A DNA stretch of 64,000 nt from Streptomyces sp. NBC_00236 (GTDB taxonomy: Bacteria > Actinomycetota > Actinomycetes > Streptomycetales > Streptomycetaceae), in the NCBI RefSeq assembly GCF_036195045.1, contig NZ_CP108100.1:5022001-5086000 (forward strand), given 5' to 3'. Shown in pieces: positions 19,975 through 39,602 of the stretch (positions are counted from its first letter, which is position 1; every line of letters starts with the position of its first letter). The translations under genes and the position numbers were made by a program. The notes under the pieces are model-generated. The model had not been told where the DNA came from. It saw only the letters and a program-made list of their open reading frames with translations, and ran no database searches.

Positions 19975-23874
<3,900 letters not shown>

Positions 23875-23947: not shown

Positions 23948-24208
23948 TCAGTGCATGGTTCCCCACAGGGCGACGGCGAGGCCGGCGGTCGCGGTGAGGA
24001 CGCCGATGCTCGCCAGTGGCCAGCGGGTGCGTTCCAGCGCGTCGAGCCGGGACTCGTGGTCCGCCAGTTGTTTGTCGGTCTGGTCGCTGCGCTGGACCAG
24101 CAGCGCCAGCTGGCCGTCGGCCCGGGCGAACCCGGCCTCCAACGTGCCGCGCAGGCGTTCCAGCTCCAGGGCGACGGCGACCGGGTTGTTCGGATCAGTC
24201 TCGGTCAC
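23948..24208 (-). CDS. Small coiled-coil/transmembrane protein, XhlA/holin-like
   Basis: The 86-residue protein has an N-terminal amphipathic heptad stretch (ELERLRGTLEAGF through DHESRLDALE) and one C-terminal membrane helix (LASIGVLTATAGLAVALW). That build resembles the XhlA-type holin-associated proteins of phage lysis cassettes. It is the last gene of the tail element, its start overlaps the end of the preceding holin-like gene by 14 bases, and it stops 24 bp from the rpoC terminator. Lysis function is inferred from build and position only. Confidence 0.65.
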   Translation of the reverse strand: MTETDPNNPVAVALELERLRGTLEAGFARADGQLALLVQRSDQTDKQLADHESRLDALERTRWPLASIGVLTATAGLAVALWGTMH

Positions 24209-24449
24209 GGGCGGCTCCTGTGGTCTCGTCCCCCGGCGGCTGCCCCGTACGCAGCCATGCGGGGAGCAGCGCCTGCACCCCCGGTACGGCCATCACCCGG
24301 GTCAGCGCCCCCGCGACGGCCAGGGCCCCGGCGACCCGGGGCAGGGTCGCCGGGACGCCGGACGCGTCGACAAGTGCGGGCAGGAGCACGGCAAGGGCAA
24401 GGGCGGTCTGGACCAGGGTGCGGAGGGTGCGGCGGGCGGCATCGGACAT
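24195..24449 (-). CDS. Holin-like two-helix membrane protein
   Basis: The 84-residue protein has two hydrophobic stretches (LVQTALALAVLLPALV and VAGALAVAGALTRVMAV) and a charged C-terminal tail. This is the layout of small actinophage holins. It lies directly behind the amidase endolysin gene (13-bp gap) and overlaps the next small membrane gene. A holin would let the endolysin reach peptidoglycan, so the element probably retains a release mechanism. Confidence 0.7.
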   Translation of the reverse strand: MSDAARRTLRTLVQTALALAVLLPALVDASGVPATLPRVAGALAVAGALTRVMAVPGVQALLPAWLRTGQPPGDETTGAARDRD

Positions 24450-24462
24450 GTGCGCGGACCTC

Positions 24463-25380
24463 TCATTTCGTGTGCGGGACCTTGAGGGCGTTCCAGGAGG
24501 TGCGGCCCGGCACCCCGTCGGCGTCGCTGCCCCGGAAGCCGAGCTTGCGCTGCCAGGCGGCGTAGGAGCGGCGGTCGGCGTCGGTCCAGCGGGGGCCCGG
24601 GCCGACGGCGTACGACGAGCAGCCCTCGGCGGCGAGCCTCCGGCCCATGGCGGTGATCACGGGGGAGCTGGTGCGGCCGGAGAAGAACGAGGCGCCCGGG
24701 AACGGCTGGTAGCGGGGGGTGGCCGTTCCTCCGGCGGGCCGTGACGCGGACGCGCCGCCGGCCGGGGCGCTCAGCCGGGCCGAGACGCGGTCCCGGAGCG
24801 AGGGCATGGTGAATCCGCGCGGGTCGACCTTCCAGTCGGACCATTCCAGGTGGCCGATGACGCTGCGGGCGGTCCAGCCGTGGGCCCGGCAGATGGCGGC
24901 CGAGACGCGTTCGATCGCCTCGAGCTGGGCGGCCGGCCACGGGTCCTCGCCGTCACCGAGGTTGACGCACTCGAAACCGTAGAAGCGCGCGTTGCCGTCG
25001 ACGGAACCGGCGCTTCCCTCGTGTTCGTGCGGGGCGGGCGGCCGGTCGCCGTAGTCCTCGGCGATGACCCGCTGGAGCACGGCCGGGTCGCCGCCGCCCG
25101 CGTGGTTGGCGCGGCCGTTGCCGACCAGGTGGACGGTGCCGGCCTTGTCGATGACGCCGTGGCACAGGGGGCCCGGCAGTGCGGAGTGGCCGTTGTAGCA
25201 GAGCTCGACGGAGGCGTCGGTGCCGCTGCTGACGGTGTGGTGGATCATCACGCCGTTCAGCGGGCCCCAGGCGCCCTTGTGGTTGCGGTTGTGGGTGCGC
25301 CAGTCCTCGTACTCGACGACATCGACGCCTTCGGCGTGCAACGCGGCGAGCAGTTGGTCGGCGGTCAGGGGAGTGGCCAT
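24463..25380 (-). CDS. Endolysin: N-acetylmuramoyl-L-alanine amidase with C-terminal cell-wall-binding domain
   Basis: The 305-residue protein has an Amidase_2 (PGRP-like) domain at about residues 30-200. It shows MIHHTVSSG, CHGVIDKAGTVHLVGNG, FYGFECVNLG and the zinc-site GHLEWSDWKVDPRG. A Ser/Ala/Gly linker then leads to a C-terminal repeat (SSPVITAMGRRLAAEG, RSYAAWQRKLGFRGSDADG) typical of actinophage peptidoglycan-binding modules. It should cut the bond between MurNAc and the stem peptide. There is no signal peptide, so export would need the neighbouring holin-like proteins. Confidence 0.9.
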   Translation of the reverse strand: MATPLTADQLLAALHAEGVDVVEYEDWRTHNRNHKGAWGPLNGVMIHHTVSSGTDASVELCYNGHSALPGPLCHGVIDKAGTVHLVGNGRANHAGGGDPAVLQRVIAEDYGDRPPAPHEHEGSAGSVDGNARFYGFECVNLGDGEDPWPAAQLEAIERVSAAICRAHGWTARSVIGHLEWSDWKVDPRGFTMPSLRDRVSARLSAPAGGASASRPAGGTATPRYQPFPGASFFSGRTSSPVITAMGRRLAAEGCSSYAVGPGPRWTDADRRSYAAWQRKLGFRGSDADGVPGRTSWNALKVPHTK

Positions 25381-25436
25381 GGTCGTGTGGTCCCTTCGTT
25401 CGGGGGCGTACGTGAGGGGCGGGCGTACGTGCGTAG

Positions 25437-25478
25437 GTGAAAGGGGCCCCGCACCACCCGGTGCGGGGCCCCTTTCAC
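25437..25478 (-). terminator. Perfect long hairpin between the fibre and endolysin genes
   Basis: Nineteen-base arms (GTGAAAGGGGCCCCGCACC and its exact complement) flank a four-base loop. It lies 10 bp after the fibre gene stop and would end or attenuate tail-gene transcription before the lysis cassette. Confidence 0.8.
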
Positions 25479-25488
25479 GAGGGCGGGG

Positions 25489-26946
25489 TCAGGAGAGCGC
25501 CGCCCAGATGGAGTTGGAGTCGGCCACCACCTTGTCGGTGGTGAAGGAGGTGGGCAGCGAGGTCTGGCCGGTGGTGCTCAGCCGGCCGTGACGGATGAAC
25601 TTCCCGGGCATCCGGGCGCTGCCGCCGGGGGCCTCGCCCACGCTGGCCGCCCGCAGGAAGGCCGGGCCGCTGTTGCTGGGGCTGGGGCCGTTGACGACGA
25701 GGCCGACCCAGTAGTTGCCCACCCCCGCGCTGTACGGGACCGTCAGCGGGCAGACGACGGTCGTGCCCTCGGTCTTCGTGATCAGCGTGGTGAGGTTGGC
25801 GGTCACCCCGACCCGGGTGCCGGTGCCGGTGTAGAGGCCCGCGAACGAGGACGTGCTCATCGTGCCGCCGACGTAACCCGGGATGTAGAACACCACGTTC
25901 TGCACGGTCGTCGGCGCGTGCAGCGGGATGCCGATGAGGTACACCCAGCCGTTGATGCAGTACTGCGGGGTGGTCGCGGAACTCGCCGCCGGGTCGAACG
26001 CCCAGCCGCGGAAGCCCATGGACGAGGGGGTCCAGGTGCCGGCCGCCGACACCGCGTCCACGTAGCCGCGCCGGGTCAGGTGGTCGGCGGTGGTCGGGGC
26101 GGCCGTCGTGGAGGGCGGGGTGACGAACGTCTTGGCGCCCGTGATCTGCTGGGCGCCCGCCAGCAGGACCCCCTCGCCCACCGGAACCGCGTCCACGTCC
26201 GACGCGGCGAGGGAGACGGCGCCGGTGAGGCCGTTGACGGAGGTGACGGGGGCGCCGCCGAGTGCCAGGTAGCGGGCATCGCCCGCCGCCTGGGTCAGCG
26301 CGCTCAGGTCGCTCGCGGTCAGCACGACCTCACCGGTCTGCCCGTTGACGGAGGCGACGGCGCCGCCGCCCGCCGGGAGCTGCGCGGTCGGGACCAGCCC
26401 ATCGGTGCCCAGGGTGGCCACGCCACCGGGCGCCCCGGCCGAGGCCGCGGCGAGGGCCGATACGTCCGCCGCGCCCAGCACGATGTCCGCCTCGGTGCGG
26501 CCGTTGACGGAGTGCACCGCGCCCGCCGGCCCGGCCGGGCCCTGGGGGCCGAGCTCCCCGGCGGGTCCCGGCGGGCCCGGCACGGCCACGTACTGCGGGG
26601 TGCCCGGATCGGCCGGGGCGATGTCGGCGAGGTCCACGGCGGGGACGGCGGCCGCCAGAGCGATCTGGTAGACGCGGCCGCCGCGGGCCAGGCCGGCGAG
26701 CTTCTCGGTGACGGTGTACGTCCACGCGAGGGGGTTCCAGCCCGGGGCGTCGGTGGCGGGCAGGACGACGCTGAACCTGCCCTCCGAGTCGAGCGTGACG
26801 CGGGTCGGACCGCCCAGGAAGAGGTCCTCCTCGGCGTGGGTGAGGAGCGCCGGGGGCCGGAATTCGACGGTGCCGCTCATCGGGCGGCCGTCGGGGGTCA
26901 TGTAGCGGGCGGTGACGGTGACGGTGGGGATGTTTACAGGCAGCAC
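25489..26946 (-). CDS. Phage tail fibre/receptor-binding protein with collagen-like segment
   Basis: The 485-residue protein has four parts. An N-terminal beta domain (MLPVNIPTVTVTARYMTPDG onward) is followed by a Gly-Pro-Pro collagen-like stretch (PGPPGPAGELGPQGPAGPAG). Three copies of a SVNG-x-TG-x-V-x-L-x-x-x-D-x-x-A repeat come next. The C-terminal domain is rich in Gly, Thr and Tyr with predicted beta strands and probably contacts the target cell. The GTG at 26946 follows GAGGAGGG. It is the last structural gene of the tail element. Target specificity is unknown. Confidence 0.82.
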   Translation of the reverse strand: MLPVNIPTVTVTARYMTPDGRPMSGTVEFRPPALLTHAEEDLFLGGPTRVTLDSEGRFSVVLPATDAPGWNPLAWTYTVTEKLAGLARGGRVYQIALAAAVPAVDLADIAPADPGTPQYVAVPGPPGPAGELGPQGPAGPAGAVHSVNGRTEADIVLGAADVSALAAASAGAPGGVATLGTDGLVPTAQLPAGGGAVASVNGQTGEVVLTASDLSALTQAAGDARYLALGGAPVTSVNGLTGAVSLAASDVDAVPVGEGVLLAGAQQITGAKTFVTPPSTTAAPTTADHLTRRGYVDAVSAAGTWTPSSMGFRGWAFDPAASSATTPQYCINGWVYLIGIPLHAPTTVQNVVFYIPGYVGGTMSTSSFAGLYTGTGTRVGVTANLTTLITKTEGTTVVCPLTVPYSAGVGNYWVGLVVNGPSPSNSGPAFLRAASVGEAPGGSARMPGKFIRHGRLSTTGQTSLPTSFTTDKVVADSNSIWAALS

Positions 26947-27036
26947 TCGGGTGCCCTCCTCGGTGGTTGGTGGGGTGGCCGTCCGACGCGTCGGGGGCCG
27001 GGCCGGCACGGGGTGCGCGGCCGGTCCCGAAGCGCC

Positions 27037-27756
27037 TCAGGACTGGATGCCGTACAACGCCAGCGGACGGCAGCGCAGGGTGTCGCCGACCGCCGCGACC
27101 TTCGCCTGGATCTCGAACGTGACGGTGGCGCCGAAGGCGGCCGGCAGCCGCTCCGTGAAGGTCAGGCCGTCACCCGGCACGCCCACCGGACCCAGCGGGA
27201 GGCCGTCGACGAGCAGCCGCACCTCGGCGCCTGCGGTGCCCTCCGCGGCGACCACGCAGTGCAGCCGCGGGTGCTGGACGAGCCCCGGGCCCCGGTAGAG
27301 CGTCGTCCAGTCGGTCGACCCGGTGGACTCCCAGCGTGCGGCGTCGGCCGGGCCGGGCAGTGGGTACGGGATGTAGGGGCGGGCCAGTCCGCCGCGGGCG
27401 GCGTCGTCGGCGAAGACCACGTTGCCCCGGCGGTCGAAGACCTGCACCGGCTGGACGGGAAGGGTGTCCGGGGCCGCCGTCCAGACGGTCAGGGCCAGGG
27501 AGCCGTCGTCGCGGCGGACGACGAACCCCTGCTGCGGCTCGTCCTCACCGCCCCGGTCGGGCTGGACCCGCCCCAGGTAGAGCAGGTCCTCGTCGCCGGA
27601 GGTGCGTACGCGCAGCCGCCCCCGGTCGCCGATGACGACCTCGCCGCCCATGATCTGATTGAGCGCCGGAGTGGTGTTGGCGCTGCCCATCAGGTCCCTG
27701 ACCTGGCGTTCCAGCGCGCGGATACGGTCGAGCAGGTCGGTGGGGATGATCGCCAC
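27037..27756 (-). CDS. Phage minor tail/baseplate protein
   Basis: The 239-residue protein starts with a short helix (IPTDLLDRIRALERQVRDLM) and then NQIMGGEVVIGDRGRLRVR. The remainder is beta rich. Small baseplate proteins of this build regularly follow the Gp37-like gene in actinobacterial siphoviruses and related prophages. The GTG start, three bases after the Gp37-like stop and behind AAGGAG, indicates a tightly coupled operon. Exact role is not known. Confidence 0.7.
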   Translation of the reverse strand: MAIIPTDLLDRIRALERQVRDLMGSANTTPALNQIMGGEVVIGDRGRLRVRTSGDEDLLYLGRVQPDRGGEDEPQQGFVVRRDDGSLALTVWTAAPDTLPVQPVQVFDRRGNVVFADDAARGGLARPYIPYPLPGPADAARWESTGSTDWTTLYRGPGLVQHPRLHCVVAAEGTAGAEVRLLVDGLPLGPVGVPGDGLTFTERLPAAFGATVTFEIQAKVAAVGDTLRCRPLALYGIQS

Positions 27757-27759
27757 GGG

Positions 27760-28866
27760 TCAGGCTCCTTCCAGGTAGAGGACGGCGGTCTCGGCCTTGG
27801 TGCGCTGCGGCGGGGTGACGGCGATGCCGACGATCCGGTAGGCGGCGTCCAGACCCTCGTGGTGCCACAGGTCGTGGATCCGCAGCCGGATGCGGGCGCC
27901 GAGGAGTGCCGGGGTGATCCGCCCGTCGAGCAGCACGGTCAGTTCCGGGATGACCTCGGGCCGGTTCTGCCGGGCCAGTTCGGCGGCGGCCAGCGAACGC
28001 AGGGTCGCCGCGTCCGTGACACCGCTGTGGTCGGAGGTGAGCTCCAGCCGTGGCCAGCCGGCCCCCAGGTCTCCGGGGGACTCCTCGCGGGCGGTGAGCG
28101 GCTGGGACTCCTGGGACTGGTCGGTGTTGGCGGAGTCGCCCCGGGCCACCCAGACGTTCGCCTGCACGGTGGAGTCCGTCGGCAGGTTGTAGGTGAGCAC
28201 CTGGCCGGGGTGGCTGAGCACGATGTCCGTGTGCCCCGTCCGGATCTGCGGGTGGCCGAGCTGAAGGCGCTTGACCCGGCGGCCCTCGGCGTCCCGGTAA
28301 CAGTGGATGCGCCACTCGAACCCGTCGCTCAGCCGGCCGAGGTTGTCGAGCAGTTCCCGAACGCGGGTGAGCGCGGAGTAGGCGTACGCGTAGTCCCGCA
28401 CCACCCCGGACCGGTCGTGGCCCGGGCTGATGCCGATGTCGCCGCCGGGCTGTTCCTGCGCGTGCGTGATCAGGGTGTGGGCGATCTCGAACTGGTCCGT
28501 TCCGGTGCCCGCCAGGTCGTGGGCGAGGATGCGGTGGTCCAGGTAGGAGTCGAAGGTGCCGGCCTGGAACTGCACGGTCAGCCGGCCCTGTTCGTCGGAG
28601 ACCGGTGTGCAGGTCCACAGGATTCCGCCCCACCAGATGTCGCCGTCGCGCTCCAGCCAGACCGCGGTGCGGCCGGGCTGGAGCGCGGCCCGTGCCCGGG
28701 CCGCGAGCGCGCCCCCGGGCAGGGGGACGGTGGCGGTGAGCGAGCCGGGCTTGCCTATGTAGTCGTCGAACTTGGTCTCGGTGAGCGGCAGCACGTCCAG
28801 GAGGCGGTCGGTGCGCAGGTCGCAGAAGAGCGCGCGGTAGACGGGCGTGGTGACGGATGCGGTCAT
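27760..28866 (-). CDS. Siphovirus Gp37-like tail protein
   Basis: The 368-residue protein matches the siphovirus ReqiPepy6 Gp37-like family (Sipho_Gp37). It opens with VYRALFCDLRTDRLLDVLPL and FDDYIGKPGSLTATVPLP, continues with WLERDGDIWWGGILW, and ends in a segment of short beta strands. The family is thought to be part of the tail tip or hub that presents fibres, comparable to Tal proteins. The ATG at 28866 is the family start. The frame stays open upstream over the next gene, but that extension is arginine-rich shadow sequence. Confidence 0.85.
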   Translation of the reverse strand: MTASVTTPVYRALFCDLRTDRLLDVLPLTETKFDDYIGKPGSLTATVPLPGGALAARARAALQPGRTAVWLERDGDIWWGGILWTCTPVSDEQGRLTVQFQAGTFDSYLDHRILAHDLAGTGTDQFEIAHTLITHAQEQPGGDIGISPGHDRSGVVRDYAYAYSALTRVRELLDNLGRLSDGFEWRIHCYRDAEGRRVKRLQLGHPQIRTGHTDIVLSHPGQVLTYNLPTDSTVQANVWVARGDSANTDQSQESQPLTAREESPGDLGAGWPRLELTSDHSGVTDAATLRSLAAAELARQNRPEVIPELTVLLDGRITPALLGARIRLRIHDLWHHEGLDAAYRIVGIAVTPPQRTKAETAVLYLEGA

Positions 28867-28874
28867 CGGCTGCC

Positions 28875-30074
28875 TCACACGAGCGGGTCGACGCGGATGA
28901 ATCGGTTGTCGAACCAGCCCTTGTTGCTGGTCGCGGAGGAGCAGTAGGCGGAGACCGCGGTGTAGTCGGCGCCGGCCTGGAGCCCGGTGACGCGGAAGGT
29001 GGTGGACACCGACGTGAGTGCCTTGGACCCGACCGCCGCCGCGCGCTCCTCGTCCGCCGCGAGGACCAGGGTCCCGCCCTTGCGGATGTTGACTCCCATC
29101 CGGGACCACTGGCCGTCGACCCCGGTGTTCCCCATGAAGCCGACGGTGATCAGGACCGCGCCCGTCACCGGCACGGTGAAGGTGGCGGAGACGGTGGGGC
29201 CCTTGGTGTCGTCGACCGCCTCGACCCAGGCGGTGGTGGCGCAGTAGCCGCCGTCGTTGTTGTACGCCCAGGCGGAGGACGGGACGGCCGGCCGCCAGAC
29301 GGTGCCGTCCCAGCGCTGGAGCCGTCCGGCCTCGTCGCGGTACTGGCCGGTGTACTCACCCGAGGCGAGCGCCCCCTGCGGGGCGATGCCGCCGGTCTGG
29401 CGGGGGTAGTTCGCCCAGCGGGCGCCGTCCCAGCGCTGGAGGGTGCTGGAGGTGTCGCGGTACTGGCCCGGGTACCCGCCAGGGGTCTCGCGGTTCCACG
29501 AGTCGGCGAGGATGCCGCCGACGGCCACGGCCGACACGCGCATGTCGTACACGGCGTCGGCCCAGGCGATGCCGCCGGTGCCGACCGAGGCCCCCGCGGG
29601 AACCAGGACGCGGGCGAGCGGAAGCGAGGCTTCCGGGAGCTGCGGCGGCTCCGGGGTGGCCTCCGCCTTGCCCACGACGACCTCCAGCACGGCTTCCGTG
29701 CGGGCTCCGCCGTCGGCCTGGGCGTCGTACACCCGGACGACCACCAGGTCGATGCGCGGGTTGGAGGCGTCGCCGTCGCCGAAGGTCACGTCGGTGTAGT
29801 CGGTGAGTACGACCGGGTAGGCCCCGGCCGAGCCCCGGCCCTGGATCACGGCGCGTCCCGGTGCGACGCTGGCCTTCATTCCGGCGCTCTCGCCGAAGAC
29901 GTAGAGACCGGACATGAGGTATTCGCCGCCGGCGGAGCCCGGGATGACGCCGCCGGTGCTGGTCAGGGCCCCGCTCGGGGTCATGGTGCCGGTGGGGGAG
30001 AGCCGGGTGTCCGCCCGGGACTGGCCTGTCTCGGTCTCGGTGCGGTTGATCAGCCAGGCGCTGCGTACGGGCAT
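28875..30074 (-). CDS. Phage tail/baseplate appendage protein with duplicated motif
   Basis: The 399-residue protein begins MPVRSAWLINRTETETGQSR and has an N-terminal beta domain like those of actinophage baseplate or upper-fibre proteins. Two copies of a GQYRD-x-x-x-x-LQRWDG-x-x-W repeat lie in the middle, before a C-terminal jelly-roll-like domain with Ser and Thr rich strands. The last domain could bind carbohydrate. It has an AGGAGG site. It lies between the Dit-like and Gp37-like genes. Confidence 0.7.
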   Translation of the reverse strand: MPVRSAWLINRTETETGQSRADTRLSPTGTMTPSGALTSTGGVIPGSAGGEYLMSGLYVFGESAGMKASVAPGRAVIQGRGSAGAYPVVLTDYTDVTFGDGDASNPRIDLVVVRVYDAQADGGARTEAVLEVVVGKAEATPEPPQLPEASLPLARVLVPAGASVGTGGIAWADAVYDMRVSAVAVGGILADSWNRETPGGYPGQYRDTSSTLQRWDGARWANYPRQTGGIAPQGALASGEYTGQYRDEAGRLQRWDGTVWRPAVPSSAWAYNNDGGYCATTAWVEAVDDTKGPTVSATFTVPVTGAVLITVGFMGNTGVDGQWSRMGVNIRKGGTLVLAADEERAAAVGSKALTSVSTTFRVTGLQAGADYTAVSAYCSSATSNKGWFDNRFIRVDPLV

Positions 30075-30123
30075 GTTGTCCTCCTGGTAAGGGATGGGAA
30101 GGTCGGTCGTGCGGCGCCGCGCC

Positions 30124-31068: not shown

Positions 31069-31110
31069 GAGGGGCCGTCACCTCGCTTCAGTCGTGGGGC
31101 GGGTGGGTGC

Positions 31111-32394: not shown

Positions 32395-33590
32395 CCGCGG
32401 GCCTTGGACAGGAAGAGCAGGGCGGCGGCCGTCTCCTGGAGGTCTGCCGTGGAGGCTTCGTAGTAGTTCTCGATCTGGAAGCCGGACACCGCTCCGGCCG
32501 TGGCGTTGACCGAGTCGGCCCTGGCCCGGCGGGCGGTGTGCTGGAGCAGCCGGTCCAGCTTGGACAGCGGGAGCACGGCCTCCGCCTCACCGGCCTCGGC
32601 GACGATGGCGTGCACACCGCCGTTGCGCGGGGCCACGATGCCGCCGGCCGCCAGCTGCGGGATCTTCGGCAGGCTGATGCCGAAGGTCTTGCCGCCGACA
32701 CCGGGGACCCAGCCGGGGATCGAGACCTTGATGCGGTTGAGCTTGTCGATCGCGGAGTTGATGAGCCGGATCACGGAGTTGATCGGGCCCTTCACCGCCC
32801 CTGTGATCTTGTCGAAGGCTCGTTTCGCGATGCCCTGCAACCCGCCCCAGATGCTGGACAGCTTCTCCTTGACCTTGCTGAAGGCCTGGGGGATGACGTC
32901 ACGGATCCAGTTGATGACAGGCGAGATGATTTTCTTGATGCCGTTCCAGACGCTGGAGATCACCTTCTTGACGGCGTTCATCACCGTCGTGATGATCTTC
33001 TTCCAGGCGTTGAAGTAGGTCGTGACGACCTTGGCGACGGCCTTGATGACGACGGTGATCGCCTTCTTGATGCCGTCCCAGACCGTCTTGATCAGCGCCC
33101 CGGCCTTCTTCATGATCGGTCCGACGGCCTTCATGACCGAGCTGATGACCTTCTTGATCGCGTCGAAGGCGACCTTGAGGACCTTCTGCATGGTCTTCGA
33201 CCGGGCGGCCATCTCGACCACCTTCTCGACCAGCGGGGCGAGCAGGGAGAGCAGCTGGCCGACGAGGTTGCCCTTCATCGACTTGTTGAGCCCCTTCATG
33301 CCCTTGGACGCCTTGTCGGCGCCGGACTTGAACTTGCCGACCTGGGTGCCGCTCTTCTGGCCGGTCTTGCCGGCCTTGGACATCGAGCGCTCGGCCTTGT
33401 CGGCGGACTGCTGGATCTTGGCGAGTTCGCGGGCGGAGCCCTGCGCGGAGCTCTTGATCTTCTTGAGTTCGCGGTCACCGGCCGAGGCCTGCCGGCCCAG
33501 GGCGTCGGCGGCCTTGCCGGCCACCTGGGTGCCGGTCTTGAAGCTGTTGAGGGAAGTTGTCGCTCTCCCGAGTGATCGCACCAGGGACAT
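32391..33590 (-). CDS. Short tape-measure-like protein 1
   Basis: The 399-residue protein is basic and helical. It has an N-terminal coiled-coil stretch (DRELKKIKSSAQGSARELAK), repeated Lys-Val-x-x-x-V amphipathic helices at residues 110-250, and the C-terminal block KTFGISLPKIPQLAAGGIVAP and LPLSKLDRLL shared with the next gene. Small, repetitive helical proteins after the chaperone genes are tape measures in siphophages. It starts at an ATG behind AGGTGG and is the first structural gene after the inserted cassette. Confidence 0.78.
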   Translation of the reverse strand: MSLVRSLGRATTSLNSFKTGTQVAGKAADALGRQASAGDRELKKIKSSAQGSARELAKIQQSADKAERSMSKAGKTGQKSGTQVGKFKSGADKASKGMKGLNKSMKGNLVGQLLSLLAPLVEKVVEMAARSKTMQKVLKVAFDAIKKVISSVMKAVGPIMKKAGALIKTVWDGIKKAITVVIKAVAKVVTTYFNAWKKIITTVMNAVKKVISSVWNGIKKIISPVINWIRDVIPQAFSKVKEKLSSIWGGLQGIAKRAFDKITGAVKGPINSVIRLINSAIDKLNRIKVSIPGWVPGVGGKTFGISLPKIPQLAAGGIVAPRNGGVHAIVAEAGEAEAVLPLSKLDRLLQHTARRARADSVNATAGAVSGFQIENYYEASTADLQETAAALLFLSKARG

Positions 33591-33632
33591 ATGTCCACCT
33601 CTTTCTCGGCAGGGGATGGCGTTTCGCCCGGA

Positions 33633-34355
33633 TCATCCGAGGGCCGAGACCAACTGATCGATCCGTGTGTGCAGCTCGTTGAGCTCGGCGGAGGCGGCAC
33701 GCGTGGACGGGATGGTCCCGGGCGACAGCGGGACGCCCGACCGCACCTGATTGCGGGTGTTGTGCCGGGCGCGCGTATTCGCGGCGACCCGTTTGTCCAG
33801 AGCGTCGATCCTCTTGTTCAGCTTCTTCGCGACTTCCTTGATCCGGAGAGTGAGCCGCTGGTCGAGTTTGTGGAATCTGCTGTTGAGCTCCAGTTCCGCC
33901 CTGTGCGCGCTCGTGCGGAACTGTTTCTGCCACTGTTTGCGCCGCGTGACGAAGTTGGCCATGCGCGCTACATTCCGGTTGATTCGTTCCGTCAGATCCA
34001 GAAGCGTGAAGTCGTACTTCACGATGGTGAGACCGATCGATGCGAAGGTGGCCCCGATCATGCCTGCGGTCAGCCCGGTTACGAGGCCCATGAATTCCGG
34101 TGTTTTGAAATACCGGCGGTCAGGAGCCCAGACAGATTCTCCGGCCTTTTCGATCTCGGAAGTGATCAGACTTTTTAGGGATGCCTCGAAACTCGCTTTT
34201 TCCTTCTTTTCTGATGCCTTCTTCTCCTCGCCACCCTTGACGAGGAAGGCAAACTTCTCCTTGTCGAGTTTGGTCTGGATCTGAGTCGTGAGTCGTGAAT
34301 CCTGTGAAGTCAGATCCTCCCTGATTTGCCTTATCTGTTCCTCGGGGCTGCTCAT
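33633..34355 (-). CDS. Unrecognised coiled-coil protein with one membrane segment (inserted cassette)
   Basis: I do not recognise this 240-residue protein. It has a charged N-terminal half (GGEEKKASEKKEKASFEASL), one hydrophobic segment (MGLVTGLTAGMIGATFASIGL) and a long basic coiled coil (HKLDQRLTLRIKEVAKKLNK onward). Its DNA is visibly lower in GC than the flanking tail genes (runs such as TTTTGAAATACC), which suggests later acquisition. It is divergent from the next gene and the two sit between the tail chaperone and tape-measure genes. The position suggests accessory cargo rather than a core tail part. Confidence 0.7.
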   Translation of the reverse strand: MSSPEEQIRQIREDLTSQDSRLTTQIQTKLDKEKFAFLVKGGEEKKASEKKEKASFEASLKSLITSEIEKAGESVWAPDRRYFKTPEFMGLVTGLTAGMIGATFASIGLTIVKYDFTLLDLTERINRNVARMANFVTRRKQWQKQFRTSAHRAELELNSRFHKLDQRLTLRIKEVAKKLNKRIDALDKRVAANTRARHNTRNQVRSGVPLSPGTIPSTRAASAELNELHTRIDQLVSALG

Positions 34356-34390
34356 AGCGATCCTCGCCTTCCTCTGATACCGTCAGCCGA

Positions 34391-35095
34391 ATGAGTGATT
34401 CAGTCGGAATGGGTGTGACAGAGAATGCTTCGGGCGGTAAAATGCCGCTCCGTCATGCTTTAGCCGTGGTCGGGGTATTTCTCCAGTTCTGCGGGGCCAC
34501 GCTCCTCATCGAACTGTTCAGCCGGGCAGGAAATCTCTCGGCCTGTGGCTACCGGGCCGGCGTGGCCTGCGAAAAGGGATCGGCGCTGCTGGGCCTGGGT
34601 GCCCCGGTCTTCATCGCGGGCATTCTGTTCTTCGGTCTCCTGGACCGAGGTGCCGGTTGGGCGGGGTCGGCGAAAGTGTTCAGCGGGCTGTCCCTGCTGT
34701 ACGGAACCGCGGGCATCGGCCTGGTCTTCGCATGGGCCGCGGCCACCGCAGACAGTGTCGTGCGGTCCGCAGTGGCCGGCGTGCTCGCGGTCATTCCGCT
34801 CTGGGTATGCGTGGTTCTCGCCAGAGGGTTTTTCCAAGGCCTCCGCCGACATGGCGCCAAGTGGTGGGCGAAGGAGACCTTCTGGACGCTCGAGGACCTT
34901 CCCCAGTCAAAGCGTGCACGAAAGCGGATCCTGCGGACGAGAGGTCTCGATCTCGGGCGCATGCGGAATGGCAGACTGGAACCCGAAACGCGGCAGGAGA
35001 AATTCCACTGGACTCTCTTCTTCGTGGAATCGTGCGCGGCTCTGATCGGCGGAGTGCTGGCCGGGTGGCTGTTCATCGTCAGTGTGTCCTCGTGA
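34391..35095 (+). CDS. Unrecognised multi-pass membrane protein (inserted cassette, opposite strand)
   Basis: This 234-residue protein has about five hydrophobic segments (HALAVVGVFLQFCGATLLIE; VFIAGILFFGLL; LSLLYGTAGIGLVFAWAA; VAGVLAVIPLWVCVVLA; SCAALIGGVLAGWLFIVS) and a basic cytosolic loop. I cannot place it in a family. It is the only rightward gene inside the leftward tail operon and its GC is low for the region. No clear ribosome-binding site precedes 34391; ATGs at 34409 and 34442 are alternatives. It might protect the host from the lytic element, but that is a guess from position. Confidence 0.7.
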   Translation: MSDSVGMGVTENASGGKMPLRHALAVVGVFLQFCGATLLIELFSRAGNLSACGYRAGVACEKGSALLGLGAPVFIAGILFFGLLDRGAGWAGSAKVFSGLSLLYGTAGIGLVFAWAAATADSVVRSAVAGVLAVIPLWVCVVLARGFFQGLRRHGAKWWAKETFWTLEDLPQSKRARKRILRTRGLDLGRMRNGRLEPETRQEKFHWTLFFVESCAALIGGVLAGWLFIVSVSS

Positions 35096-35166
35096 CCGCA
35101 CCCGGGGACCTGTCCGCGGTCATGTGGGGCGGCACCGGGTGAGGGACGAAAGGCCGCGCGCCGGGC

Positions 35167-35571
35167 TCAGGCGAAGAACCGCATGAGTTCGCCGCGGTCG
35201 GGCGTCTCCGGCGAGGGGGAGTCCGGGCCTTCCGGTGGCTCTTCGGTGTCACCGGGCCTCGGCACCGGCACCGGCGGCTCCGGCGCGTCGGAGTCCTCGT
35301 CCGTGTTGACCGAGGCGAACATCCAGTTGGCGGCGGCGAGATGGTCCACGGCGGCGGCCAGGAGGTAGTCCGTCACCGTCCAGTCGGCGCTGTCCCCGTG
35401 GAGTTCCTGGGCGACGGCGCTGTCGCGTGGCATGTGCTTGACCAGCACCGCGAGCCGGCGGCTGGTGAGCCGGCCGCGATACCAGTCGAGCAGGTCCACG
35501 CCGAAGTGCCGCAGCAGGTCGGCCTCCAGAGCCTCGGCGTGTTCTTCCGCGAACGCGTCGAGGCTCAGCCT
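35167..35571 (-). CDS. Tail assembly chaperone, C-terminal (T) frame reached by -1 frameshift
   Basis: This frame starts RLSLDAFAEEHAEALEADLL and has no ATG, GTG or ribosome-binding site near its beginning. It lies in the -1 frame relative to the preceding short gene and overlaps its end. A GGGGGAA run at 35571-35577 fits a slippery site, and slipping there gives a 229-residue G-T type fusion spanning 35855 to 35167. Such fusions assemble the tube around the tape measure in siphophages. The C-terminus is proline and acid rich (PPVPVPRPGDTEEPPEGPDS). Confidence 0.75.
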   Translation of the reverse strand, partial: RLSLDAFAEEHAEALEADLLRHFGVDLLDWYRGRLTSRRLAVLVKHMPRDSAVAQELHGDSADWTVTDYLLAAAVDHLAAANWMFASVNTDEDSDAPEPPVPVPRPGDTEEPPEGPDSPSPETPDRGELMRFFA

Positions 35572-35855
35572 TCCCCCAGGCCGAGCCCGGTCTCCTTGCC
35601 GTACGCCTCCAGGATCGCGGCGATGTCCTGCATGGTGATGTCGTGCCGCTCGAAGCGCGCGAACTGCTCCTCGCCCAGCAGCAGTTTCAGCAGGCCGTCG
35701 ACGTCGTTGTCGTCGAGGGAGCGGAGCGCCTTGGCGGTGGAGCGGCCCAGTTCGGTGGGCAGTTCGAAGGTGTCGTCGTCCAGGTCGAAGGACCAGGAGC
35801 GGCCGAGCGCCTCCATGCGCTGGGCGCGGGCGGCGTTGACGTCGAATGAAGCCAT
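35565..35855 (-). CDS. Tail assembly chaperone, N-terminal (G) frame
   Basis: The 96-residue acidic helical protein (MASFDVNAARAQRMEALGRS; SFDLDDDTFELPTELG; LKLLLGEEQFARFERHDITM) has the size and acidity of lambda gpG-type chaperones and lies directly behind the tail tube gene. It ends GLGLGEG, where the codons CTG GGG GAA form the candidate slippery site for the -1 shift into the next frame. Both products are normally needed in fixed ratio. Confidence 0.78.
   Translation of the reverse strand: MASFDVNAARAQRMEALGRSWSFDLDDDTFELPTELGRSTAKALRSLDDNDVDGLLKLLLGEEQFARFERHDITMQDIAAILEAYGKETGLGLGEG
35571..35577 (-). promoter_or_regulatory. Candidate -1 programmed frameshift site GGGGGAA
   Basis: In the zero frame the mRNA reads CTG GGG GAA GGC TGA. 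A one-base backward slip on GGG GAA continues as AGG CTG AGC and enters the downstream open frame. The stop codon lies two codons later, as is usual at such sites. Confidence 0.65.
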
Positions 35856-35939
35856 GGGTGGCGGTTCTCCTTACGTGAGCGTGTGGGGCGGGGGTGCCGG
35901 GGCGGGGCCGGGGTGAGCCGGCCCCGCCCCGGCGGGGAA

Positions 35940-36548
35940 TCAGGCGCCGGCGCCGGCCGGAACCTGGTAGGCGGCGTCCTTCATGACGAAGGTGGCGAGC
36001 GCCTGGTCGTTGCCCGGGGAGAGGGCGGTGAAGGTGACACCGAGCATCGCGGCCGCCTTGCGGGCGAGCTTGATGTCGTCGGTGGCCGTCACCTGGCCGC
36101 GCGGGATGACGAAGCGGTAGGTGACCGCCGTGCCGTCGGTGAACTCCAGGCCGAGCGCGCGCTCGTCGAAGGTCGGGCCGTCCGGCACGTCGAACTGGAC
36201 GATGTCCGGCTTGGTCGTGTCCCGGCGGATGCCTTCCTTGGCGCCGCCCAGGAAGAAGGGCAGCGTGTCCTCGTTGAACTGGAGCATCGAGAACTTCAGC
36301 GTCAGGTCGCGGTCCGCGTAGATGAACCGGGCCGGGCTGATCGACTGCCACGTCTCGACCGGGTCCAGCTTGTCCTTCTTGGAGAAGGTCACCCCGTCCG
36401 TGGAGGTGTAGCCGAGGTCGGTCCACTCCACGCCCCAGTCGGCCGACGGGTCGTCGGAGAAGGCGGCCGGGAGGGGGGCGTTGATGTCCGCGACGAGGAT
36501 GCGGCCGGTGCCGGCCACGCGGATCTCGGACGAGTTGTTGCCTGCCAT
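35940..36548 (-). CDS. Phage major tail tube protein
   Basis: The 202-residue protein (MAGNNSSEIRVAGTGRILVA; WTDLGYTSTDGVTFSKK; LKFSMLQFNEDTLPFFLGGA) matches actinophage major tail proteins. These stack as hexameric rings to build the tube. It has a strong AAGGAG site, suiting the high expression such a protein needs, and is immediately followed by the chaperone frames. It is of the flexible-tail type, with no sheath gene next to it. Confidence 0.85.
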   Translation of the reverse strand: MAGNNSSEIRVAGTGRILVADINAPLPAAFSDDPSADWGVEWTDLGYTSTDGVTFSKKDKLDPVETWQSISPARFIYADRDLTLKFSMLQFNEDTLPFFLGGAKEGIRRDTTKPDIVQFDVPDGPTFDERALGLEFTDGTAVTYRFVIPRGQVTATDDIKLARKAAAMLGVTFTALSPGNDQALATFVMKDAAYQVPAGAGA

Positions 36549-36600
36549 GGATGGCTCCTTGGGATGAATCGGTGTGGGGTCGTGCCTGCCGTGGGTACGG

Positions 36601-36626
36601 CAAAGGCCCCGCCGGTGGCAGGGCCT
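36601..36626 (-). terminator. Hairpin between tail terminator and tube genes
   Basis: AGGCCC (36604-36609) pairs with GGGCCT (36621-36626), with a GCC/GGC inner helix and TTT following on the minus strand. It may attenuate transcription ahead of the tube gene. Confidence 0.5.
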
Positions 36627-36670
36627 CGTCTGTGGCGGCGCGGGATCGCGCCGGGGTGGTGGTGTCCGGG

Positions 36671-37081
36671 TCAGCCGATGCGCAGCGAGACCCGCATGAC
36701 GGTGAGGTAGCGGTTGGCCGCCGGGTACAGGTACTCGGGCAGCCAGCGCGGGCCGTCGGCCTCGACCACGTCGGTGATCACGACATTCGTCCCGTACGTC
36801 CGGCCGACCGCCGAGAGCAGCTCGGCGCGGGCGGCGTTGGCGAGGCGGTGCGCGGTCACCTTGTCGGGGCCGTAGGCCTCCAACTCGATGAGCGGCCGGT
36901 CGAGATGGAGGTCGTCGATCCAGGCACCGCCGCGCCGGGAGACGATCACCGCCGGCTGGGTGCCGTCGAAGCCCGGCGGCGGGGTCTCGTCCACGACCGC
37001 GTCCGCGAGGTCCGGGCGGTCGGAGAGGAGCTCCACGACGATGGCCTCGACGTCGGGGAAGGTGCTCGGGGGTGAACTCAT
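36671..37081 (-). CDS. Phage tail terminator/completion protein
   Basis: The 136-residue protein (FPDVEAIVVELLSDRPDLAD; PAVIVSRRGGAWIDDLHLDR; LIELEAYGPDKVTAHRLANA) fits small tail terminator proteins that cap the tube (lambda gpU-like in size, and in this position before the tube gene). In a complete phage, head-completion genes would come next upstream. Here there is only intergenic DNA and a rightward small gene, so this is the first structural gene of the element. Confidence 0.78.
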   Translation of the reverse strand: MSSPPSTFPDVEAIVVELLSDRPDLADAVVDETPPPGFDGTQPAVIVSRRGGAWIDDLHLDRPLIELEAYGPDKVTAHRLANAARAELLSAVGRTYGTNVVITDVVEADGPRWLPEYLYPAANRYLTVMRVSLRIG

Positions 37082-37213
37082 GACGGGGCATCACTCCTGT
37101 TCGTGGCCGGTCGGCCGCCGAGGGGCGTACGGGTACGGGAACGGCGGAGCTGCGCCCCGGAGGGAAGGTGGGCGCAGCTCCGCCGCTGCACCAACTGTGA
37201 CGCATAACGTGCG

Positions 37214-37222
37214 TGCGCGCAA
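37214..37222 (+). promoter_or_regulatory. TGCGCGCAA motif copy 1
   Basis: The same nine-base word recurs at 39108-39116, and its CGCGCAA core forms the arms of the palindrome at 39014-39031. All lie in control regions of the tail element, so it may be the site for the XRE regulator at 39159. Confidence 0.45.
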
Positions 37223-37301
37223 CTATTTAGTGCGAGGTGGCAATCTCGAACGCGCCGGCAACTCCCGCGTGAGGGGGGCCGGGTGCGTTAGTCTGCGGGT
37301 A

Positions 37302-37317: not shown

Positions 37318-37382
37318 GAGGTGGCGGTTCTGAAGCACGGAGCGCCGTTACTGGGCGTGCGGCACAAGGAAGTGGAGCGGGT

Positions 37383-37643
37383 GTGGACGGGAGCACGATG
37401 GTGATCGGGGCCCAGGATCGGCTGGCCGATGTCATGGCCGCTGTGGTCGAAGTGGCCGCGGAGTCGGGGGAGTCGGGTACGTACACCGCGGACGTCGCCC
37501 GGACGCTCACCGCCGTCGTCGGCAAGGTCGCGGCGAGGGTCGCCGTGGAGGCGGAGACGCGGGGGTTCCGCAGCGGCTGGGGCGAGGCGGTGGCGCTGAC
37601 CTCCGGGGGCAAGGGGGAGAGCGCCCAGGTGTTCCGGATGTAG
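37383..37643 (+). CDS. Small unrecognised protein downstream of the LexA-like box
   Basis: The 86-residue protein (MDGSTMVIGAQDRLADVMAA; VEVAAESGESGTYTADVART; RFRSGWGEAVALTS in part) is Ala, Val and Glu rich and predicted helical. I do not recognise a family. GGAG five bases before the GTG at 37383 supports this start, and an in-frame ATG lies five codons on. It faces away from the tail operon. Placement near a possible SOS box suggests a regulatory or triggering role, which is inference. Confidence 0.55.
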   Translation: MDGSTMVIGAQDRLADVMAAVVEVAAESGESGTYTADVARTLTAVVGKVAARVAVEAETRGFRSGWGEAVALTSGGKGESAQVFRM

Positions 37644-37665
37644 CCCGCGCCGAGGGCGAAGGGGG

Positions 37666-37940
37666 TCCCGCGCCCCGGGGTGGCGGACCCGTGCGCGAGG
37701 CGGGGGCGTGCGCGAGGCGCGGACCCGCGCCCCGGGATGGCGGACCCGAGGGCCAGGCGGGGGCCCGCGCCTCGGGATGGCGGACCCGAGGGCCAGGGGG
37801 GCCCGCGCCTCGGGATGGCGGACCCGTGCGCGAGGCGGGGGCGTGCGCGAGGCGCGGACCCGCGCCCCGGGATGGCGGACCCGAGGGCCAGGCGGGGGCC
37901 CGCGCCTCGGGATGGCGGACCCGTGTGCGAGGCGGGCAGG
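37666..37940. repeat. Higher-order tandem repeat, GC-rich
   Basis: The core GATGGCGGAC (first copy GGTGGCGGAC) begins at 37679, 37736, 37776, 37814, 37871 and 37911. The spacing is 57-40-38-57-40, so a 135-bp block of three units has been duplicated. The longer units carry an extra GTGCGCGAGGCG-type insertion. All six frames stay open, which produces false coding signals. This is the only content of the 376-bp gap before the HTH gene. Confidence 0.85.
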
Positions 37941-38019
37941 GGGATGGGGGCATGGCGAAGGGGGGAGGGGCGGACCCTGCGCGGGCCTGCCCCTCCCCCC
38001 CCCTTCACCTCTGCCGTCC

Positions 38020-38214
38020 TCAGCCGGCCGTACGCGGCTTCCGCCGCGCGGCCCGCTCCGCCGCGAAGACGTCCTCCAGCCGGAACAACTGTGCCCGGCC
38101 CTGCTTCCCCGCGGGGGTCAGGCGCCCGAGCTGCACCCACTTGCGGATCGTCGCCGGAGTCACGCCCGCCTCGTCGGCGGCCAGCGCTCCGGTGAGCAAG
38201 GTCGCCGCGGTCAC
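38020..38214 (-). CDS. Small MerR/excisionase-type HTH protein
   Basis: The 64-residue protein has a winged-helix excisionase-like core: ALAADEAGVTPATIRKWVQL as the helix-turn-helix and GKQGRAQLFRLEDVFAAE as the wing and last helix. Its GTG start overlaps the upstream stop (GTGA), so it is coupled to the zinc-cluster gene. Proteins of this type bind DNA as excisionases or small regulators. No integrase gene is visible in the element. Confidence 0.75.
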   Translation of the reverse strand: MTAATLLTGALAADEAGVTPATIRKWVQLGRLTPAGKQGRAQLFRLEDVFAAERAARRKPRTAG

Positions 38215-38960
38215 CGGCGCACCTCCTTCTCCGCGCTGTCCACCGTCGAGCCGCTCAGCTCGGTGAGGTCCCCGCCGGACTCCGCCGCCAGCCGCGCCCA
38301 GGCGCCCTCGCTCCAGGCGTGCCGGTGGGCCGGGTCCGTACGGCAGTCGCAGTCCTGGCCGGTGCACCGGCAGGCGGGGTTCACGCACAGCACCGCGCGC
38401 CGGGCCGGGAAGGCGCGCAGGGAGACCGAATCGCACCACGGGCAGCGGCCGCGGACCCGGACGACGGGTTCCGCCGCACCCAGTGCACGGGTGCAGCGCC
38501 GCGCCATCCGGCGGGCCTCGTCCCGGATATGAGCCGTGAGCAGCGGGTCTTCGGCCGCCTGTCCGAGCAGGGCGGCGACGCGGAGCAGCCGCTCGGCCAC
38601 CCGGGCGCGCCGGGGACGCGGCAGGCGCAGCCGGTCGTGCACCGCCTCGTCGAGTTCCACCACGCCGTCGCTGATGTCGCGGATGGCGTCGGAGACGTGC
38701 AGCCGCAGGGGCGCGGTGGTGGGGCCGGACGGGGTGAGGCCGTGCAGTTGTTCGGCCCGCAGCGCCTCCTCCCGTTCGGCGCGGCTGCGGCCCGCCGGGG
38801 CGGACGCCCTGCCGAGGTCCGGCGGGGGAGCGGAGGAGGAGTGGGGTGACGGTGCCAGTTCGCCGAGCAGCTCCGGGAACTGCCTCAGCAGCAGTTCGAT
38901 CCAGAGCAGGGCGTCGCGGGCGGGCTGGTCGGTCTTCTCGTTCTCGGTGCGCGTGGTCAT
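38211..38960 (-). CDS. Cysteine-cluster protein, probable phage-related regulator
   Basis: The 249-residue protein has a helical N-terminal part (RDALLWIELLLRQFPELLGE) and a C-terminal cysteine cluster (RCPWCDS, then LCVNPACRCTGQDCDC) that probably binds zinc. A short acidic tail follows. I cannot name a family. It is coupled to the small HTH gene by a four-base overlap. GAAGGGA precedes the ATG at 38960. Its position at the control end of the tail element points to regulation. Confidence 0.65.
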   Translation of the reverse strand: MTTRTENEKTDQPARDALLWIELLLRQFPELLGELAPSPHSSSAPPPDLGRASAPAGRSRAEREEALRAEQLHGLTPSGPTTAPLRLHVSDAIRDISDGVVELDEAVHDRLRLPRPRRARVAERLLRVAALLGQAAEDPLLTAHIRDEARRMARRCTRALGAAEPVVRVRGRCPWCDSVSLRAFPARRAVLCVNPACRCTGQDCDCRTDPAHRHAWSEGAWARLAAESGGDLTELSGSTVDSAEKEVRR

Positions 38961-39013
38961 GGGCGGTCCCTTCTCCCCGGACACGGTTCGTTGCGTGGTC
39001 GCACGTTCGCATG

Positions 39014-39031
39014 TTGCGCGCTCGCGCGCAA
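39014..39031. promoter_or_regulatory. 18-bp palindrome TTGCGCG-CTCG-CGCGCAA
   Basis: Perfect 7-bp arms with a four-base centre lie in the gap between the divergent cysteine-cluster gene and the XRE gene. Its half-site matches the TGCGCGCAA words at 37214 and 39108, so it is a likely operator of the XRE regulator. Confidence 0.6.
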
Positions 39032-39107
39032 ACGCTATTGGCCGGAAGGTGCGGCCTTTATGTCGACCGAATCCTCACAAACGAGACGGGGCGAGAGGGT
39101 AATTCCG

Positions 39108-39121
39108 TGCGCGCAAGCGCG
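39108..39121. promoter_or_regulatory. TGCGCGCAA motif copy 2 with inverted repeat
   Basis: TGCGCGCAA begins at 39108, and CGCGC-AA-GCGCG (39110-39121) forms an inverted repeat 38 bp before the XRE start. It may overlap the XRE promoter, consistent with autoregulation. Confidence 0.45.
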
Positions 39122-39158
39122 ATACTCTGAGGTTCGCTTCGGAGGGAGGCGACCGCTC

Positions 39159-39602
39159 ATGACCACAGGCGAACTCGACCGCTTCGCGACCTGGATCGAG
39201 GGACTGATCCGACAGCGCGGCTTCGACATCGACAGCCCGCGCGGTGGCGGAAAATCGCGCCTGGCCGACGAGGCCGGAGTCCACCGGGCCGCCATCACCC
39301 GGCTGCTCCAGCGCCAGAGCATGCCCGACCTGGAGACCACGCGACGGCTGGCCCAGGTGCTCCAGGTCCCGGTGCGCGACATGCTCATCCAGTCCGGCCG
39401 GCTCACCGAGGAGGACCTGCCGCTGCCGTCGGCCGGCCGGAACTCCACGGGCGGCGAAGGGCGCCTCACGCTGGAGGAGGCGGCGGACGGCCTGGGGGTC
39501 GCGGCGGACCAGCGGGAGATGTTCATCAGGATCGCCGGCCAGTTCCTGCCCTCGGAATCGGCGGCGGCCGCCGGGCGCCGGGCGCCGCTCGCCTCCGACT
39601 GA
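39159..39602 (+). CDS. XRE-type HTH transcriptional regulator
   Basis: The 147-residue protein has an N-terminal XRE helix-turn-helix: SRLADEAGVHRAAITRLLQR, with QSMPDLETTRRLAQVLQVPV as the following helices. The C-terminal part is short and has no clear domain. The start sits behind GGAGGGAGG. It diverges from the cysteine-cluster/HTH pair, with palindromic sites between. It is the best candidate for the repressor that keeps the tail element quiet. Confidence 0.85.
   Translation: MTTGELDRFATWIEGLIRQRGFDIDSPRGGGKSRLADEAGVHRAAITRLLQRQSMPDLETTRRLAQVLQVPVRDMLIQSGRLTEEDLPLPSAGRNSTGGEGRLTLEEAADGLGVAADQREMFIRIAGQFLPSESAAAAGRRAPLASD

Follow-up and report, generated by a model that had tools for sequence, protein, structure and literature searches.

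A candidate F-type tailocin-like element of Streptomyces sp. NBC_00236 with an exchangeable helical/membrane gene cassette

The F-type tailocins are the closest described systems to the locus that is the subject of this paper. Rhizoviticin is presented in PMC10811719 as an F-type tailocin that lacks head genes but has lysis genes and a repressor of its own; F-pyocin and monocin are given there as the other F-type cases. A passage in PMC8910223 calls the F-type mode of action largely unknown, and PMC8319346, whose own tailocins are from Pseudomonas, states that no immunity genes for tailocins are known. In the genus Streptomyces, contractile systems derived from phage tails (extracellular contractile injection systems (eCIS), SLP and CIS-Sc) are described in PMC8910223 as widespread. 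Here, we analyzed a stretch of 64,000 nucleotides, referred to below as the window, from contig NZ_CP108100.1 of Streptomyces sp. NBC_00236. It contains an element, at about 5.046–5.062 Mb of the 8.33 Mb genome, that encodes a non-contractile phage tail without a head and, inside the tail operon, a swappable pair of genes for a helical and a membrane protein. This pair is the most informative feature of the element; the preliminary description had taken the helical gene for a tape measure.

The sequence gives good support for a non-contractile tail that lacks a head and is maintained by its host, and it is likely that the tail acts as a tailocin that kills. That the swappable pair encodes a payload and its immunity protein is a more tentative proposal. 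As the best explanation of the whole, which we place just on the probable side, we suggest an F-type tailocin-like system of the Streptomycetaceae with exchangeable payload and cognate immunity.

The element consists of a leftward run of genes from 37081 to 23948, delimited from the list of open reading frames (ORFs) and family searches, and a regulatory block to the right of it that reaches 40494. The tail run, described earlier from the sequence alone, proved to be real, ordered and correctly placed, since the terminator, tube, chaperone frames, Dit-like protein, hub, fibre and endolysin all match tail or lysis families. Transcription, on the minus strand throughout, starts with a tail terminator (36671–37081; phrog_123, 2.5e-24, with the Pfam terminator family below cut-off), followed by the major tail tube protein (35940–36548; PF25681, 1.5e-63) and the tail assembly chaperone, made up of a first frame (35565–35855; phrog_10551, 9.4e-27) and a −1 frame extension (35167–35577; phrog_5813, 1.5e-28) that has no start of its own near its 5′ end. 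The chaperone is, as predicted from sequence, a −1 frameshift pair: the sequence GGGGGAA is found at most 40 nt ahead of the stop of the first frame in 53/53 relatives (in L073, the stop lies further on), and the combination of GGGGGAA and a −1 frame is what we take to be the mark of programmed frameshifting, as in lambda gpG/gpGT.

Beyond the variable cassette, the run continues with two tape measures of 399 aa (32391–33590; phrog_3981, 7.6e-34) and 427 aa (31111–32394; phrog_3981, 2.2e-35), which are paralogues with 29% identity (9e-53). Both had been listed among the short tape measures; a further gene read in that way (33633–34355) matched no tape-measure family and is a member of the cassette. 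Next come a distal tail (Dit-like) protein (30124–31068; phrog_5577, 3.3e-90; SPP1_Dit below cut-off; 50% identical to that of phage Attoomi), a 399-aa virion structural protein taken as tail tip by its place (28875–30074; phrog_3398, 5.7e-85), a minor tail protein or hub of the Gp37-like kind (27760–28866; phrog_1885, 9.5e-96; 53% identical to that of Streptomyces phage Darolandstone), a 239-aa protein assigned to the tail tip by its place (27037–27756; phrog_9849, 1.1e-87 over the full length, a family without known function), a tail fibre (25489–27009; phrog_14726 tail fiber, 2.3e-138) and an endolysin with Amidase_2 and siphophage peptidoglycan-binding domains (24463–25380; PF01510, 8e-22; phrog_880, 2.2e-73; NF038080, 5.6e-33, over cut-off). 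The run ends with small proteins of 84 aa (24195–24449; phrog_4316, 1.5e-23) and 86 aa (23948–24208; phrog_5225, 1.1e-28). Holin-like genes had been noted in the run; the families of these two proteins have no known function, and it is their place beside the endolysin that suggests a role in lysis. The called frames of the tail run are borne out over most of its length by codon-position GC. Family searches of the interval proteins found a complete non-contractile tail gene set together with the element's own lysis genes, the endolysin being assigned by family matches.

No clear head or packaging gene was found in the element. Single Pfam models for TerL_ATPase, HK97 capsid and S78 protease gave no match across the whole 8.33 Mb genome and no contractile sheath was found in the element, in agreement with the preliminary description. 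Portal, integrase and replication genes were not seen among the scanned interval proteins (no search aimed at these families was made in the rest of the genome), nor was any integrase remnant in the interval. PHROGs files phrog_3398, the family of 28875–30074, under “head and packaging, virion structural protein”; in phages Picard and Attoomi, the gene at the corresponding place stands between two minor tail proteins. Head genes nearby had been named in advance as the finding that would overturn the idea of a tail-only element. TerL matches occur in 5/54 relatives and portal matches in 11/54. None of these shares a contig with the tail at a distance of 500 kb or less, by a test that used one Pfam model each and is limited by contig breaks in the draft genomes. 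The test was able to see a head, as the TerL gene about 8 kb from the weak-tube locus L086 (G041) indicates. Judged by terminase, portal and capsid, the element does not appear to be a temperate phage or prophage, and judged by the sheath, it does not appear to be an eCIS or SLP. (The genome has two contractile sheath matches, at genome positions 4900478 and 7924485, the nearer about 145 kb from the element; this strain thus seems to carry tail systems of both the contractile and the non-contractile type.)

The tail is maintained by its host lineage, and all genes tested are under purifying selection. In comparisons with six relatives, the ratio of non-synonymous to synonymous substitution rates (dN/dS) ranged from 0.06 to 0.60 and was below 1 for every tail and regulator gene tested, a set that leaves out the neighbours of the small regulators, the second chaperone frame and a 258-aa gene at the right border. 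Broken tail genes in all relatives, the other observation that had been named as fatal to the proposal, were not encountered: a rearranged and reduced copy is present in G012 and a broken one, with the tube in two pieces, a partial amidase and most tail genes not found, adjoins rpoC in G008 (L083). Tube matches of any strength were found in 84/295 Streptomyces genomes (own included), and a strong tube relative (at least 45% identity) in 54 of the 294 others. These 54 comprise all places at or above that limit, with split copies in G224 and G008 counted and weaker matches left out; the 57 regions compared also include three weak-match loci (L085–L087), of which L086 alone was shown to have a terminase nearby. 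With weak matches included, the tube occurs in 43 of 200 drawn genomes of the family, representing 10/17 genera. A 66-tube tree has a branch that separates five phage tubes and the three weak chromosomal ones from the other 58 rows, with support of 91/86 and in 90% of 200 bootstraps; the support is moderate, and long branches meet there. A scan of viral contigs with the tube returned no relatives; being based on short patterns matched exactly, it can reveal close relatives only. Gene set, selection and relatives together uphold the view that this is a tail-only, non-contractile element kept by a Streptomyces host.

The variable cassette occupies 33503–35247 (about 33.5–35.25 kb), as delimited by alignment with L088 (S. 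laculatispora): identity is 92.5% over 27341–33502 and 94.5% over 35248–37118, with nothing alignable in between. The break points with L031, L090 and L091 fall within about 110 bases of these, while L032 can be aligned through the cassette, but at 68%, compared to 81% on both flanks. By these alignments, the cassette is swapped as a block within an otherwise conserved tail. It contains a minus-strand gene for a variable helical protein with one hydrophobic segment (33633–34355), hereafter called the coil, which we propose as payload or effector, and a divergent plus-strand gene for a membrane protein with five hydrophobic segments (34391–35095), the proposed cognate immunity protein, whose type across loci follows the helical type. 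The GC content of the two genes is 58% and 63%, respectively, compared to 65–78% in the other genes.

The coil has only nine relatives in 5.8 billion proteins, and all those with an organism name are from Streptomyces; no phage match was found at E 0.1. For the membrane protein, 11 relatives were found among 7999 candidates scored. Of all coil pairs (54 coils, from the window and 53 relatives), 9% could be aligned at E < 1e-5, compared to at least 89% for ten other genes, a comparison that favors the other genes, as they were found by match to the window's gene, and in which wrong starts lower the likeness of the coils, which were found by position. At all 54 set-1 loci where a coil was called (two calls being doubtful), it lies between chaperone and tape measure. 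An iterated helical profile recruited 45 and 42 of 79 coils and no shuffled decoys; since coiled coils are poorly controlled for by shuffling, a single coil family is not claimed. In many other loci, the partners are small two-segment proteins, a different kind from the five-segment partner in the window. Six of these were searched against Pfam: one barely passed the cut-off for DUF3592, three had weak matches to it (E 0.014–0.064) and two had none. DUF3592 matches in the window's own genome all lie outside the element. PADLOC gave weak helical and helix-turn-helix (HTH) matches alone. In many loci (L037–L056 and others), the gene between coil and chaperone is not a recognized membrane gene but a relative of the 258-aa gene mentioned above.

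The pairing of coil and membrane types was compared across different tail backbones. To count as a membrane partner, a protein needed two hydrophobic segments, a short motif or similarity to an already recognized partner, a rule set after the first loci had been seen. The named loci number 51, with 11 duplicates dropped and several more that lack a chaperone or tape measure on the stretch; 11 cases were added after the rule was set. The coil counts (79 for the profile, 87 for the partner count) leave out L040 and L086, and the profile also omits coils longer than 420 aa. In the main test, with overlaps trimmed, pairs were taken from 34 loci with both genes and compared at tube identity below 65% and E < 1e-10. 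There were 15 coil-similar pairs and 18 membrane-similar pairs, and 10 pairs were similar in both, compared to a shuffle mean of 0.94 and maximum of 7 (p = 5e-5, the lowest value that 20,000 shuffles can give). Untrimmed sequences, with too long an ORF for the L099 coil and overlaps among seven coil and membrane ORFs, gave 14, 18 and 9, respectively (null mean 0.88, maximum 6). Among pairs with at least one later named locus and tube identity below 80%, 11 were alike in coil, 22 in membrane type and seven in both. The first 23 loci alone, at E < 1e-5, gave p = 0.0008 (tube below 65%) and p = 0.0011 (tube below 75%), with single shuffles exceeding the observed 10. The shuffle ignores relatedness, for which the limit on tube identity is a partial remedy. 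These results suggest that coil and membrane types travel together across tail backbones.

Coil likeness was also compared between loci with and without a partner. At tube identities of 40–65%, coils were alike in 26/387 pairs with a recognized partner and in 7/797 without, which is what exchange between backbones would give. At 80% or above, they were alike in 14/78 pairs with a partner compared to 230/292 without (a slightly different comparison gave 62/78 unlike instead of 64/78). Several loci carry extra membrane genes. In L034 (two genes), L077 (one) and L099 (one), the closest outside match of the extra gene is at another coil type; in L099, both the coil and the gene adjoining it are of the window type, and the second gene is of the L077/L069/L093 type. 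The matched membrane gene adjoins the coil, with the extra one beyond, in L034, L036, L077, L078 and L099. Orphan immunity arrays are typical of polymorphic toxin-immunity systems, and the extra membrane genes may be arrays of this kind.

A number of observations weigh against payload and immunity as the meaning of the pair. The pairing corresponds to a cassette moving as a unit, and linkage alone could explain part of it. Rank correlations in the first 23 loci were modest (coil–membrane 0.19, coil–tube 0.14, coil–adjacent tape measure 0.01), and the contrast at tube identities of 80% or above is largely one of a single clade against the others, and is reversed at 40–65%. In a polymorphic toxin-immunity system, every producer would be expected to have the partner gene; a membrane partner was recognized for only 34/87 coils. 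The 53/87 without one include a tight group of tubes in its entirety (ten loci: L037–L039, L048–L050, L053, L055, L056 and L084), to which many rpoC–rpsL loci belong. (Some of these calls are misses of the rule, since L090, L094 and L096 have two-segment plus-strand proteins.) L031 and L095 share a coil type, but not a membrane type. The L099 coil also resembles that of L077 (29%), and the extra genes in L036, L075, L078 and L115 are not unmatched but duplicate the type already present. The window's own membrane protein is not DUF3592-like, unlike the kind in other loci. The two cassette proteins gave structure models too poor for use, with predicted local distance difference test (pLDDT) values of 51.5 and 55.4, and neither Pfam nor PADLOC found a known toxin or immunity domain. 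Finally, particle formation, killing, loading, membrane action and immunity are all inferred steps in our explanation.

The regulatory block comprises an XRE repressor, a zinc-ribbon-like protein, a MerR-like protein and two proteins without a family. The preliminary inventory had missed these three regulators as well as the swappable pair. The XRE-family repressor (39159–39602, plus strand) matches HTH_3 (1.1e-7, over cut-off) and phrog_3949, transcriptional repressor (1e-13). The 249-aa zinc-ribbon-like protein (38211–38960, minus strand), a candidate regulator whose zinc-ribbon-like cysteines were read by eye, had no phage match; it was found in 52/295 Streptomyces genomes (own included), and of the 51 besides our own, 47 belong to the 54 relatives with a strong tube match. 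A 64-aa MerR-like or excisionase-like DNA-binding protein (38020–38214, minus strand) matches phrog_2474 (5.5e-16), with MerR below the Pfam cut-off and weaker matches through its HTH to terminase-small-subunit (6e-6) and excisionase families. On the plus strand, an 81-aa protein (37398–37643) is 52–89% identical in the relatives where it was found. By eye, a run of near-repeats (GGTCCGCCATCCC...GCGCGGG) is seen at 37690–37940, between the 81-aa and MerR-like genes.

There are eight exact copies of TTGCGCGC in the window. Three of them (39014, 39024 and 39109, spanning 39014–39116) lie between the XRE gene and its divergent neighbor, at the divergent regulator promoter, and one lies ahead of the tail terminator (37215–37222, minus strand), where we propose it as an operator of the tail operon. 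In relatives, the density at the regulator promoter was 2.64 per kb, compared to 0.128 overall, with at least one copy in 39/40 loci; the motif also precedes the tail operon in 15/40. The XRE protein would thus repress its own gene through these predicted sites, and might control the tail operon directly here and in some relatives. A motif search found no SOS-box-like site within the element, which says nothing for or against lysis of the producer by its own tail (see below).

At its left border, the element meets a housekeeping gene directly, as previously noted: rpoC ends at 23874, and the first element gene begins 74 nt away at 23948. The right border needed revision, being nearer to 40494 than to 39602, with rpsL starting at 40798. 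The last gene before rpsL (39718–40494, plus strand) encodes the 258-aa protein, which recurs with the element, sometimes adjoining the cassette, and has no match in seven short rpoC–rpsL gaps of 333–1189 bp in genomes with the tail elsewhere (L148, L149, L151, L152, L156, L157 and L159); we therefore count it as part of the element. Among 20 element genes counted, only this one and 34391–35095 contain a TTA codon, one each. A passage in PMC8910223 deals with the dependence of TTA codons on bldA.

The rpoC–rpsL interval, thought to be the home of the element, appears from the relatives to be one of several. The tail lies inside the interval here and in 24/54 relatives, adjoins rpoC on split contigs in five more, is undecided in one, also on split contigs, and lies elsewhere in 24. 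Among the last, G041 retains amidase and lysis genes in its rpoC–rpsL interval, which is on a different contig and contains one N, and may therefore belong to the rpoC–rpsL group. The rearranged and reduced copy of G012 also falls in this class. G011 (L150; gap 3.6 kb) has kept the XRE, MerR-like and 249-aa regulators and one lysis gene in the interval, with its tail on another contig, and G172 (L155; gap 2.9 kb) has kept a MerR-like match, with its tail elsewhere. In the remaining genomes of this class, the gap measures 333–390 bp in six and at most 7.8 kb in the others; in three of the six shortest gaps, which were examined, no element gene found a match. In L060 and L062 (G119 and G114), the tail operon is inverted relative to rpoC, with the terminator facing it. 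Another tail lineage (L063, L064, L066, L067, L071 and L072) has a helical gene at the same place, and the window's regulators, amidase and lysis genes were unmatched within the region compared. In L065 (G096), the tail module stands, by eye, beside an apparent biosynthetic gene cluster. On the rpsL side of the element in L035 (G170), there is a 58-codon rpoC-like stretch (18930–19103), whose match in the genome search has two stops. An origin by attachment site is not proposed, as such a stretch was found beside the element in G170 alone.

In the explanation that we favor, a domesticated non-contractile tail would be held in check by the XRE regulator of the element, and the element's endolysin and lysis proteins would bring about its release. 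Hub and fibre would recognize the target cell, and the exchangeable cassette would set the cargo delivered: the variable helical protein may be loaded with the tape measure and act on the target membrane, while the divergently encoded membrane protein may protect the producer and its kin. A more specific version, which we consider rather less probable than not, has killing specificity set jointly by the fibre and the exchangeable payload, with allele-matched membrane immunity and extra immunity genes in some strains; the element would then be a polymorphic toxin system delivered by a flexible phage tail and widespread in Streptomyces and related genera.

The strongest competitor, to which we would give perhaps a minor but real share of belief, is an ordinary F-type tailocin that kills by binding and puncture, as is thought for F-pyocins, with the cassette as a pair of morons serving, for example, in phage exclusion. 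It would account for the tail gene set and for the coils without a recognized membrane partner, and there is precedent for membrane proteins acting against the inner protein of a tail, as tape measures are targeted by surface or membrane exclusion proteins: a reference title in PMC3952083 gives the tape measure as the target of Ltp, and passages and references in PMC13190303 give SNIPE and HK97 gp15 as surface or membrane proteins of this kind. A moron pair fits less well with a helical gene placed within the tail operon, after the chaperone and before the tape measure, in every set-1 locus with a call, with the matching of helical and membrane types, or with the three Streptomyces phages in which the tape measure directly follows the chaperone. 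Distinctly less probable is a tail that acts on its own producer or colony, lysing it in a programmed way under stress or in the course of development. It would then resemble the cytoplasmic contractile systems of Streptomyces, which are reported to mediate death of the producer cell (in a passage of PMC10598620). The element's endolysin and lysis-like proteins, its conserved regulators and the TTA codons in two genes would all suit such a role, but the exchange of a cassette beneath a conserved tail would better fit an arms race.

We give very little credence to the two remaining possibilities. A defective prophage remnant on its way out would leave copies such as those in G008 and G012, and regulator genes without a tail at rpoC–rpsL, as in G011 and G172; it would not be expected to show dN/dS below 1 in all genes tested, GGGGGAA in 53/53 relatives and the regulator site in 39/40 loci, or tube matches, strong and weak, in 10/17 genera of the family. 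Equally improbable is a locus that supplies tails to a satellite or to a phage with heads only. The kept tail terminator and the lack of head genes found in the element speak for it, but the genome as a whole lacks matches to the single terminase, capsid and protease models used, and TerL is present in just 5/54 relatives.

Compared to known systems, the element shares with the F-type tailocins (F-type pyocins, monocin and rhizoviticin) a non-contractile tail without head genes, its own lysis genes and its own regulator. It differs from them in its streptomycetaceous host, the tandem paralogous tape measures, the exchangeable helical/membrane cassette and the absence of any integrase remnant seen. 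This comparison draws on the published description of rhizoviticin. Among the titles and abstract openings listed in searches of the open-access literature, none describes such a Streptomyces tail system, subscription journals and preprints lying mostly outside these searches. Streptomyces phages have the same order of tube, chaperone, tape measure and minor tail genes. The Dit-like protein and hub are 42–53% identical to those of phages SV1, Picard, Attoomi, Raleigh and Darolandstone, whereas the tube is 31% identical to that of phage Kromp, the best-scoring of 114 phage records, so that the tail looks mosaic. Unlike the element, Kromp, Attoomi and Picard have head genes, lack a cassette and have a single tape measure (2.2–4.8 kb) that follows the chaperone immediately. 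Polymorphic toxin-immunity systems (type VI secretion systems (T6SS), contact-dependent inhibition (CDI) and S-type bacteriocins) differ in that the element has a flexible tail as carrier, no known toxin or immunity domain found and many loci without a recognized partner. They resemble it in having a variable gene matched to an adjacent variable gene, in block exchange and in the extra partner genes that lie distal to the matched one in some loci. If our explanation is correct, the matched helical/membrane pair bears both on immunity genes for tailocins and on the F-type mode of action. The eCIS, SLP and CIS-Sc of Streptomyces are contractile and have a sheath, whereas the element has none, and it would thus be a second tail-derived system in a genus known for contractile ones.

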